Shown: positions 5,369-8,475 of the stretch, piece after piece | Layout of the letters: each line of letters opens with the position of its first letter | Numbering within the stretch: position 1 is the first letter of the stretch | DNA from: Balneolales bacterium ANBcel1 | GTDB taxonomy: Bacteria; Bacteroidota; Rhodothermia; Balneolales; Natronogracilivirgulaceae | Reading direction: 5' to 3' | Length of the DNA stretch: 64,000 nt | Assembly (NCBI GenBank): GCA_029688905.1 | Contig: JARULB010000008.1 | Span: forward strand, 1-64,000 | Position numbers and translations under genes: made by a program | The notes under the pieces: model-generated | What the model was told of the DNA's origin: nothing | Databases searched by the model: none | Seen by the model: the letters and a program-made list of their open reading frames with translations, nothing else

Positions 5369-6061
5369 ATGCAAAATCTTCAGGAAACTGTTAGAGAAGT
5401 TGTTCAGGCCATATTGCCGGTGACGATTGTTGTCATTTTGTTGCAGTTTACCATCATCTGGCTGCCCCTGGAAGATTTTCTGCAATTCATCATCGGTGCG
5501 GTTATGGTATCGGCCGGACTCATCTTTTTTCTCCTGGGCGTTCACATTGGGTTGTTGCCAATCGGCGAGATGATTGGTTCCTCTTTACCGAGAATGGGCA
5601 AGGTTTGGCTAATTGTACTGATCAGCTTTCTGCTTGGATTCGTAGTAACCGTGGCCGAGCCGGATGTTCGTGTTCTGGCAAATTATGTTGACAATGTCTC
5701 CGACGGCGAGGTAAATCGCCATTTGCTGATCTATACCGTTGCCCTGGGCCTGGCCATATTCGTCGGACTAGCCATTCTCCGCATCATATACGACATCCCC
5801 ATAAAATATCTGCTGACCGGTGGATATCTGGCGGTGTTCATCCTTGCCATATTTGTACCCGAACAGTTTGTATCCATCTCCTTTGACGCCGGCGGGGTCA
5901 CAACAGGTCCGCTGGCCGTTCCCTTTATTCTGGCCTATGGCGTTGGAGTGGCGGCAGTACTTGGCGGACGAAAAACAACCGACAATGGCTTCGGGCTTGT
6001 TGCACTGGCTTCCATCGGACCGGTACTGGCCGTTCTGATCCTCGGAATTATTTATGGATAG
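5369..6061 (+). CDS. DUF1538 family multi-spanning membrane protein (first copy)
   Basis: 230 residues, almost entirely hydrophobic, with about six or seven membrane spans and no signal peptide. It carries motifs shared with the next gene: a span with FFLLGVHIGLLPIG, then VTVAEPDVRVLA, then FDAGGVTTGPLAVPF. These identify it as DUF1538, a family of uncharacterised inner-membrane proteins. The paired acidic and Pro residues (AEPD) and the Gly-rich DAGG-TGP segment look like substrate- or ion-path elements, but that is inference. It starts at ATG 5369 and ends 6 bases before its paralogue, so the two are almost certainly made together and may form one two-part channel. Confidence 0.88.
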   Translation: MQNLQETVREVVQAILPVTIVVILLQFTIIWLPLEDFLQFIIGAVMVSAGLIFFLLGVHIGLLPIGEMIGSSLPRMGKVWLIVLISFLLGFVVTVAEPDVRVLANYVDNVSDGEVNRHLLIYTVALGLAIFVGLAILRIIYDIPIKYLLTGGYLAVFILAIFVPEQFVSISFDAGGVTTGPLAVPFILAYGVGVAAVLGGRKTTDNGFGLVALASIGPVLAVLILGIIYG

Positions 6062-6067
6062 GACAGT

Positions 6068-6796
6068 ATGGAACTGAAAATTTTCAACGGAATTACGGGT
6101 GTCATTATCGAAGTGGTCTTTGCCCTTGTACCACTCATTATCTTTTTCCTGATCGCCCAGGTACTTTTCCTTCGCATTCCGTGGAAGAAGGTGACCGATA
6201 TCATCAAGGGTATCGTACTGGCTTTTTTCGGTCTGACACTGTTTCTGCAGGGGGTTCATGTCGGGTTTGAACCCGCCGGCAAGCTGATGGGCGAAGTGCT
6301 CGGATCAAAAGACTACCGCTGGGTCCTGGTGCCGATCGGTTTTTTACTGGGATTTGTCGCCACCATTGCCGAACCTGCCATACGAATTCTGAACCATGAA
6401 GTGGATAAGGTATCGGGCGGTTACATCCCGAAAAATGTACTGCTCTACACGCTCTGTATCGGTGTTGGGGTTTCTATCGCGCTGGCCATGCTTCGACTGC
6501 TGGTCGGCATTCCGATCGTCTGGCTTGTACTTCCCGGTTATATTATCGCGTTGATTATGATGCACTTCACTTCTCCGACATTCACATCCGTCGCTTTTGA
6601 TGCCGGAGGGGTCGCAACAGGACCGATGACTGTTACGTTTATTATGGCGATAGCACTCGGAGTAGGAGAAGCACTCCCCGACCGAAATCCGATGATCGAC
6701 AGCTTCGGAATGATTGCACTGGTTGCTTTGGCACCCATTATTTCCGTACTTACGCTCGGGTTACTATACGCATGGAAGGAGCGCCGAAATGATTGA
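6068..6796 (+). CDS. DUF1538 family multi-spanning membrane protein (second copy)
   Basis: 242 residues, paralogous to the preceding gene along its whole length: LFLQGVHVGFEPAG, VATIAEPAIRIL and FDAGGVATGPMTVTF line up with the first copy in the same order. It is an inner-membrane protein with about six or seven spans. In many genomes the DUF1538 domain occurs as a tandem fusion; here the two halves are separate genes. Its last 8 bases overlap the start of the PII-like gene, which points to translational coupling and a shared complex. The substrate is unknown; a PII-controlled transporter is my inference from the context. Confidence 0.88.
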   Translation: MELKIFNGITGVIIEVVFALVPLIIFFLIAQVLFLRIPWKKVTDIIKGIVLAFFGLTLFLQGVHVGFEPAGKLMGEVLGSKDYRWVLVPIGFLLGFVATIAEPAIRILNHEVDKVSGGYIPKNVLLYTLCIGVGVSIALAMLRLLVGIPIVWLVLPGYIIALIMMHFTSPTFTSVAFDAGGVATGPMTVTFIMAIALGVGEALPDRNPMIDSFGMIALVALAPIISVLTLGLLYAWKERRND

Positions 6797-7523
6797 CATT
6801 TTAAAAAACTGCCAGAAATTGATTGTTACGGTTGTAAGCCGTGACAAAACCGCCCGTGTTGTGAAAGCCTCAAAACGGAAGCGCGCCGAGGGCGCCACAA
6901 TTATGCACGGCCAGGGAACGGGAATTGAGAAGTGTAAAACGTTTTGGGGGATTCCCCTGGAACCTGAAAAGGATGTCATCTTTACCGTTGTGTCCGATGA
7001 ACATGCCGAAGAGGTGCTGGATATCATCAGCAAAAGTGTAAAAATGAGCAAGCCGGGTAATGGTGTCGCGTTTATTCTGGATATCACGCGATTTACCGGT
7101 GCTGTTCATTTGCACAAGAAAAAGAATAAACCCGAAGATTTACCGCTTAAAGCCATGGATGAGACCGCCCAGTTTGAACTGATCGTCACCATTGTCGACA
7201 AAGGATTTTGTGAAGAAATCATTACGGCATCCCGAAAAGCCGGTGCTGCCGGGGGCACCATCATAACAGGCAGGGGCACCGGAGTACACGAACGAGGCAG
7301 GCTGCTCTCTTTCAATATAGAACCTGAAAAAGAGGTGATTCTCACTCTGGTTCCACAGTCCATTACCGACGAGGTACTCGAAACCATTGTAAAAACAGGA
7401 GAACTTGACAAACCCGGCAAGGGTATCGCCTTCGTTCTGAATGTTGAAAAGGTGCTCGGCATCAATCACCTGGTTCAGGACATGCTTCACAAGCATAAGC
7501 AAGGTAATGGCAGCGGCGAATAG
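6789..7523 (+). CDS. Tandem PII-like (GlnB-fold) regulatory protein
   Basis: 244 residues made of two PII-like domains (about 5-105 and 115-225). Each begins with a beta strand (KLIVTVV and ELIVTIV), continues through GATIMHGQGTG or GGTIITGRGTG, and ends with a B-loop-like segment (KPGNGVAFIL, KPGKGIAFVL). The short T-loops lack the tyrosine that is uridylylated in GlnB, so control by GlnD is unlikely. PII proteins sense ATP, ADP or 2-oxoglutarate and gate transporters or enzymes by contact. I chose the ATG at 6789, inside the end of the upstream DUF1538 gene, because the fold begins directly after it. The likely partner is the DUF1538 pair. Confidence 0.88.
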   Translation: MIDILKNCQKLIVTVVSRDKTARVVKASKRKRAEGATIMHGQGTGIEKCKTFWGIPLEPEKDVIFTVVSDEHAEEVLDIISKSVKMSKPGNGVAFILDITRFTGAVHLHKKKNKPEDLPLKAMDETAQFELIVTIVDKGFCEEIITASRKAGAAGGTIITGRGTGVHERGRLLSFNIEPEKEVILTLVPQSITDEVLETIVKTGELDKPGKGIAFVLNVEKVLGINHLVQDMLHKHKQGNGSGE

Positions 7524-7599: not shown

Positions 7600-8475
7600 C
7601 TACTTTTCGGATGAGGTACTTCGGGTCTTCAGGTTACCGGAACCGATCAGGTCAACAGGCAGCGGCTCGCTGGCAGATCCGGCATAAACCGACACATGCG
7701 GGAACGGAATTTCGATACCCTCCTTGTCAAAACGCTCCTTGATACCCATATTCAACCCGTTTCGCAGTTTCAGAAAATCCTCCCTGGCGGCCCAGGCGAC
7801 AAACAGAATGTCGATGGATGAGTTGCCGAACTTGTCAAAAATCAGCAATGGCGGTGGTTCCTGCAGGGAATAGGGGATTTTTTCCGCGACATCAAACAGC
7901 ACCTCACTGACCCTCTTCAGGTCTTCCTTGTAAGCCACGGAGATGTTGCAATCCACCCTTCGGATGGGGAACCGGGTGATGTTGATGAATTCCGATTTAA
8001 TCATTGACTCATTGGGAACCCTCAGAAAGCGGTTGTCGAACATGCGAAGTTTGACCGACAGGGTGTCGATGGAAAGTACAATTCCCACATTGCCACTTAC
8101 GCTGACCACATCCCCCACTTTGAAAGACTGTTCAGCAATCAGAAAAAAACCACTGATAACATTCGAAATGCTTGTTTGAGATGCGAAACCCAGTGCCAGT
8201 CCGACTACACCCGCAGCGCCAAGAAGAGGTGTAAGCCCGAATCCCAGATCGTGAAGAACCATGATCACAAGAAGCACCGCGCCGGAATAAAAAACCAGTT
8301 TGCCGACCAGCATTCCATAATGCGCGTTGTATTGCTTTGAAACATACCGTATCAGTGAGCGACGGATGAATATCAGCGCAAAAAAACCAATGACTATCAG
8401 AAACAGGACGCGTATCAGCTGTAGTAACCGGGCTTCGGTCAAGTATCCTTCAAACAGGCCTGAAATAAAATCCAT
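7600..8475 (-). CDS. Small-conductance mechanosensitive channel, MscS family
   Basis: 291 residues, near the size of E. coli MscS. Three membrane spans (about 18-40, 62-85, 90-115) are followed by a cytoplasmic beta and alpha-beta vestibule. The third span has the Gly/Ala-rich packing of the MscS pore (GAAGVVGLALGFASQTSISN), followed by FKVGDVV. The protein releases solutes on osmotic downshock. It lies 33 bases after a DUF432 gene on the same strand and is probably its operon partner. It converges with the PII-like gene across a 76-base gap. Confidence 0.93.
   Translation of the reverse strand: MDFISGLFEGYLTEARLLQLIRVLFLIVIGFFALIFIRRSLIRYVSKQYNAHYGMLVGKLVFYSGAVLLVIMVLHDLGFGLTPLLGAAGVVGLALGFASQTSISNVISGFFLIAEQSFKVGDVVSVSGNVGIVLSIDTLSVKLRMFDNRFLRVPNESMIKSEFINITRFPIRRVDCNISVAYKEDLKRVSEVLFDVAEKIPYSLQEPPPLLIFDKFGNSSIDILFVAWAAREDFLKLRNGLNMGIKERFDKEGIEIPFPHVSVYAGSASEPLPVDLIGSGNLKTRSTSSEK

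Follow-up and report, generated by a model that had tools for sequence, protein, structure and literature searches.

A tandem PII protein encoded with a split DUF1538 pair points to a probable PII-gated cation/proton antiporter

A tandem PII protein is encoded directly after two DUF1538 genes

Few signal proteins are as widespread as those of the PII type. What would one of them do beside a pair of membrane proteins from the family DUF1538? The question is raised by positions 5369-7523 of the window, by which we mean the whole 64,000-nucleotide stretch of Balneolales bacterium ANBcel1 DNA that was analyzed. Three genes lie there on one strand:

5369..6061, + strand: umpA-like DUF1538 gene, first half-transporter (230 amino acids [aa]; PF07556)
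6068..6796, + strand: umpB-like DUF1538 gene, second half-transporter (242 aa; PF07556)
6789..7523, + strand: gene for a tandem PII-domain protein (244 aa; the best-read start is the ATG at 6789)

An earlier reading made from the sequence only had described two DUF1538 paralogs separated by 6 bases, the second overlapping a gene with two PII domains by 8 bases, and the open reading frames and family matches confirm this layout. PF07556 matches both membrane proteins over their full length (umpA-like, E value of 1.4e-76 and 257 bits; umpB-like, 4.9e-75 and 251.9 bits; cut-off, 22.6), and the two proteins are 38% identical to each other. The P-II model PF00543 matches the third protein in two stretches (E value of 2.7e-18, 66.6 bits against a gathering score of 25), and each of the two domains also exceeds the cut-off on its own. 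The AF2 model of this protein contains two ferredoxin-like PII folds. Its best Foldseek match is GlnK from the AmtB complex (E value of 2.8e-6), and VIA-align superposes it on PII chains with a Z score of about 11 and an rmsd of about 2-4 over about 80-105 residues.

In the window genome, which is 98% complete, there are a single DUF1538 locus, one AmtB, and a diadenylate cyclase. No canonical GlnB/GlnK was found in it, despite the AmtB. The sole other PF00543 match of the genome (L005 1495-1857, minus strand; C4:56729-57019) neighbors a gene for an RND-type efflux pump, and by inspection of its sequence this protein is PII-NG-like. Elsewhere, AmtB and PII are naturally fused in one open frame in Hungatella hathewayi (G405:C1:3732455-3734104, 594 aa) and in Enterococcus raffinosus (G404:C8:18499-20202, 604 aa). 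Convergent to the three genes, at 7600-8475 on the minus strand of the window, is a gene for a candidate MscS-type small mechanosensitive channel.

PII adjoins DUF1538 across bacterial phyla and archaea

To avoid bias toward PII, loci were collected by DUF1538 only; the DNA scan used a subset of an alignment of 15 diverse DUF1538 halves, the full alignment being too divergent. Among the deduplicated loci with readable downstream sequence, all of them best-scoring DUF1538 matches, a PII domain was found directly downstream on the same strand in 165 of 169 (2 further loci end at a contig and are outside this count). The set spans Bacteroidota, Bacillota, Desulfobacterota, alphaproteobacterial plasmids, Aminicenantes, and archaea; its Pseudomonadota coverage consists of two alphaproteobacterial plasmid loci, and Halomonas is outside the survey. 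PII was linked in 29/30 loci of Bacillota, 15/16 of Desulfobacterota, 29/30 of the archaeal phylum of Methanothrix, and 7/7 on plasmids, as well as in 77 of the 79 named genomes with readable context. When 395 Bacteroidota genomes were sampled, 13 exceeded the DUF1538 cut-off, and in all 13 PII was directly downstream. The median distance from the DUF1538 stop to the PII domain is about -4 bases.

Because the first loci were the best-scoring ones, we searched an extra 67 DUF1538 genomes with a PII alignment. By comparison of coordinates by eye, PII adjoins DUF1538 in 64 of them, a count in which a few cases presuppose a second, unlisted DUF1538 half in the intervening space and from which the weakest DUF1538 matches of the Bacillota search are left out. 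As for the remainder, G954 has no PII and a cut DUF1538, G1079 is ambiguous, and G1214 has its PII elsewhere: its fused DUF1538 is without a neighboring PII, and another contig carries a tandem PII that belongs to the DUF1538-linked subfamily (C36, C77).

Genomes hold few PF00543 matches (0-6 each), so chance adjacency would be on the order of 0.1%. In three genomes (G395, G399, and G406) the DUF1538-linked PII is the sole PF00543 protein, and the linked PII is therefore independent of GlnB/GlnK. The linkage survives repeated fusion and splitting of either partner, and no natural DUF1538-PII fusion protein was present in any locus examined. Neighboring genes across lineages are what a PII-gated transporter would show, and this near-universal link over several phyla and the archaea supports the functional PII-DUF1538 unit that had been proposed from the sequence. 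In public records the two annotations already appear next to each other. We found no report of the pairing in the open-access papers searched, and a word search of two later papers naming UmpAB or DUF1538 found no PII.

Copy number varies and a few loci lack PII

A matched 2:2 complex of membrane halves and PII domains had also been suggested. There is one PII domain in 53 of the linked loci, two in 110, and three in 2, which excludes a fixed 2:2 ratio as a general rule. Split DUF1538 genes occur with one PII domain (51 loci), tandem PII (36), or two PII genes (14), and fused DUF1538 genes occur with tandem PII (54), two PII genes (6), or one PII domain (2). In 2 loci a triple-PII chain (L031 2211-3386; L141 290-1447, minus strand) stands beside a long DUF1538 fusion of 630-710 aa.

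In the window, the two PII domains, which are 33% identical to each other, are placed as follows:

6816..7091, + strand: PII domain 1, the more divergent copy (separate PF00543 placement; tree)
7176..7463, + strand: PII domain 2, slowly evolving and resembling the single-PII form (PF00543 placement; alignment; tree)

Domain 2 is 48% identical to single-PII domains and domain 1 is 36% identical, and second PII domains and single PII domains generally resemble each other. The PII tree, in which many forks are unresolved and one artefactual row (can_L120) forms a long branch, sorts mainly by domain position and not by organism (2 changes for first domains and 3 for second domains, against a shuffled mean of about 30). 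This sorting is consistent with an old duplication of the PII domain, after which the first domain would have evolved fast.

Such architectures bear on whether PII is a reversible, GlnK-like inhibitor at all. It could be a constitutive structural or sensory subunit that is always bound, like RCK/KTN on K+ transporters. The near-invariant linkage and the translational overlap would fit such a subunit, as would the degenerate first PII domain of Clostridia, which suits a structural role, and the triple-PII proteins of the long-fusion clade, each of which is possibly a PII trimer within a single chain. However, four loci have no PII (L057, L066, L145, and L184, of which L145 is a partial DUF1538), and these together with G1214 show that PII is not indispensable. 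In addition, the DUF1538 pair UmpAB of Halomonas zhaodongensis is active in Escherichia coli without a co-cloned PII (PMC5484666). We consider a permanently bound subunit unlikely, while giving it real weight.

The DUF1538 proteins are relatives of the antiporter UmpAB

The earlier reading took DUF1538 to lack an assigned substrate, which is out of date. UmpAB, a hetero-dimer encoded by two DUF1538 genes, carries out Na+(Li+,K+)/H+ antiport and makes E. coli KNabc tolerant of Na+ and Li+; it is the sole DUF1538 pair tested so far, and the paper describing it makes no mention of PII (PMC5484666). NCBIfam has models for both subunits. The UmpA model NF041627 matches the umpA-like protein with an E value of 5.9e-39 and 133.8 bits, below the curated cut-off of 490, and the UmpB model NF041628 matches the umpB-like protein with 4.1e-35 and 121.4 bits, below the cut-off of 500. 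Because of these scores, we regard the window proteins as relatives of UmpAB and not as equivalogs, and their substrate could differ from that of UmpAB. The window and UmpAB share two adjoining, mutually homologous DUF1538 genes, a two-part transporter, and a full-length family match; they differ in the equivalog scores and in the PII gene that comes next in the window and in nearly all of its relatives.

Five features of the DUF1538 proteins are relevant to transport and to contact with PII:

5657..5668, + strand: EPDV motif of the umpA-like half (E97-P98-D99; invariant E/P columns; helix break in a homolog's model)
5882..5914, + strand: FDAGGVTTGPL motif of the umpA-like half, with an invariant Asp (second broken helix in the homolog's model)
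6371..6382, + strand: EPAI motif of the umpB-like half (E102-P103; invariant columns; homolog's model)
6596..6628, + strand: FDAGGVATGPM motif of the umpB-like half (D178; invariant columns; homolog's model)
6773..6793, + strand: basic C-terminal tail of UmpB, WKERRND (family charge pattern; tail comparison)

Alignment columns E102/P103 and D178/G185 (umpB-like numbering) are invariant, as are E97/P98 in a further alignment. The AF2 model of a natural DUF1538 fusion (L104; pLDDT of 87, pTM of 0.86) has two broken helices per half, sited at the EP and FDAGG motifs. Comparison of the DUF1538 fold with the PDB gave no clear match (best Foldseek E value of 6.6e-3 with a TM score of 0.15; best VIA-align Z score of 5.2). 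In clostridial fused homologs, positive charges alternate between the halves. Taken over to the window by homology, this pattern suggests an N-in/C-out first half and an N-out/C-in second half, forming an antiparallel inverted repeat, with the basic C-terminal tail of UmpB in the cytosol. We infer that this tail is a candidate docking site for PII. Among the few PII-less loci, loss of the basic tail is hinted in L057 and L184 and not in L066.

Alternatively, DUF1538 might move something else, such as a carboxylate, bicarbonate, or an osmolyte together with Na+, and the antiport seen in Halomonas would be a side activity or limited to one clade. The scores below the equivalog cut-offs and the lack of a PDB fold match leave room for this, and PII partners elsewhere control the uptake of NH4+ and HCO3- (PMC10710835). 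Against it, the one tested pair is an antiporter, and the invariant acidic Glu and Asp predicted to lie in broken helices of both halves would suit cation or proton binding. A machine-learning study also lists DUF1538 among pH-adaptation features (PMC13255231). We judge a different substrate to be improbable, about on a par with the permanently bound subunit.

The linked PII domains have lost the canonical ligand residues

On sequence grounds, the DUF1538-linked PII domains are a subfamily of their own, and the T-loops of the window protein display its features:

6915..6971, + strand: short T-loop of PII domain 1 (GTGIEKCKTFWGIPLEPEK), without Tyr (alignment)
7275..7331, + strand: short T-loop of PII domain 2 (GTGVHERGRLLSFNIEPEK), with the GRGxGxHE and EPEK family motifs (alignment)

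Between the equivalents of G37 and P57, the T-loop has 16 residues versus 21-23 in canonical PII proteins, making it about 5 residues shorter. Neither T-loop of the window has any tyrosine, whereas canonical GlnB/GlnK has the modifiable Tyr51; this absence agrees with the earlier expectation of control by ligand and not by uridylylation. Nearly all members of the subfamily have replaced Q39 with G, K90 with I, L, or V, and R101 with G, and R103 is mostly not an arginine, so that the canonical ATP/2-oxoglutarate contact set (Q39, K90, R101, and R103) is lost. G37, G89, and, by the alignment used, K58 (the K of EPEK) are kept. Newly conserved are R162, G165, H167, E168, E178-K181, P209, and G224 (window numbering). 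For this residue comparison we excluded can_L120, a stop-free mistranslated sequence that is present in the 7-sequence canonical PII row and in the tree; mistranslated canonical sequences containing stops, from minus-strand loci, were left out of the whole comparison. The conserved and replaced positions surround the inter-subunit ligand site of PII proteins, and a non-canonical ligand or binding mode is therefore likely. The linked PII probably reads a non-canonical ligand.

Could this ligand be c-di-AMP, with PII as the receptor tying K+/Na+ exchange to it, as for other K+ transporters of Bacillota? Of 28 genomes with DUF1538, 27 have a diadenylate cyclase (DAC) domain, the window genome among them; however, DAC is common in these phyla, with 11 of 14 controls having it. 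Methanothrix (G401) has the DUF1538-PII module and no DAC match, and the module is carried by alphaproteobacterial plasmids, whereas the Caulobacter and E. coli controls are without DAC. A c-di-AMP riboswitch does lie just downstream of one DUF1538-PII operon (L194 2913-3085), where it stands before the next gene, but searches for Na+, c-di-AMP, and Mg2+ riboswitches found none within the window and none upstream of any operon examined. We consider a c-di-AMP receptor quite improbable. Least credible by far is an ordinary nitrogen-status GlnB/GlnK beside an unrelated transporter: public records do annotate a "P-II family nitrogen regulator," but the linked PII is a separate clade with a short T-loop and without the canonical ligand residues, and many genomes have a canonical GlnK elsewhere too, while the linkage is to DUF1538.

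A proposed model for PII-gated cation/proton antiport

The lost nitrogen-sensing residues, the antiport activity of UmpAB, and the linkage together make it probable that the module exchanges ions as an antiporter under the control of a small molecule. Our preferred reading, a PII-gated monovalent cation/proton antiporter, is thus a probable one; it and its rivals overlap, and their probabilities need not sum to one. In this model, the two DUF1538 proteins would come together in antiparallel orientation, as an inverted repeat like that of a UmpAB-type unit, and exchange Na+/K+ for H+. The PII sensor encoded by the third gene would assemble through its PII domains at the cytosolic face, where it would probably contact loops and the basic C-terminal tail of the second DUF1538 protein. 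A small molecule binding between PII subunits would raise or lower transport. This ligand would not be the classical ATP/2-oxoglutarate pair and is perhaps another adenine nucleotide. The physical contact, the gating, the direction of control, and the ligand are what we infer from these observations.

More tentatively, somewhat short of an even chance, the module may represent a widespread, unrecognized class of PII-gated monovalent cation/proton antiporters of bacteria and archaea. These would couple ion or pH homeostasis to metabolism, and their PII subunit would read neither ATP/2-oxoglutarate nor bicarbonate nor c-di-AMP but a different ligand. If this is true, PII control extends to Na+/K+/pH homeostasis and DUF1538 gains a regulator. 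The linkage also suggests a ligand site of a distinct kind, open to assay with small soluble proteins.

Comparison with known PII systems

The principle of a PII protein acting on a transporter is already known, with AmtB-GlnK and SbtA-SbtB as precedents (PMC10710835). A 2023 review names few PII-controlled transporters (the Amt family, the Nrt and Urt ABC systems, and SbtA) and regards such control as seemingly limited to transporters able to act as trimers (PMC10710835). The PDB fold searches with Foldseek and VIA-align gave no structural relative supporting a DUF1538 trimer. Like GlnK-AmtB and SbtB-SbtA, the window has a gene of the PII superfamily adjoining a transporter gene, and a PII fold, here a predicted one. 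Unlike them, its transporter is DUF1538 and not Amt or SbtA; its PII has a short T-loop, no uridylylated Tyr, and replaced ATP/2-oxoglutarate residues; and tandem or duplicated PII domains are common in the DUF1538-linked family. NifI1 and NifI2 of archaeal nif clusters are likewise two diverged PII paralogs beside their target, but that target is nitrogenase. PII-NG with RND metal pumps also places a non-canonical PII beside a membrane transporter, with a different pump as the partner.
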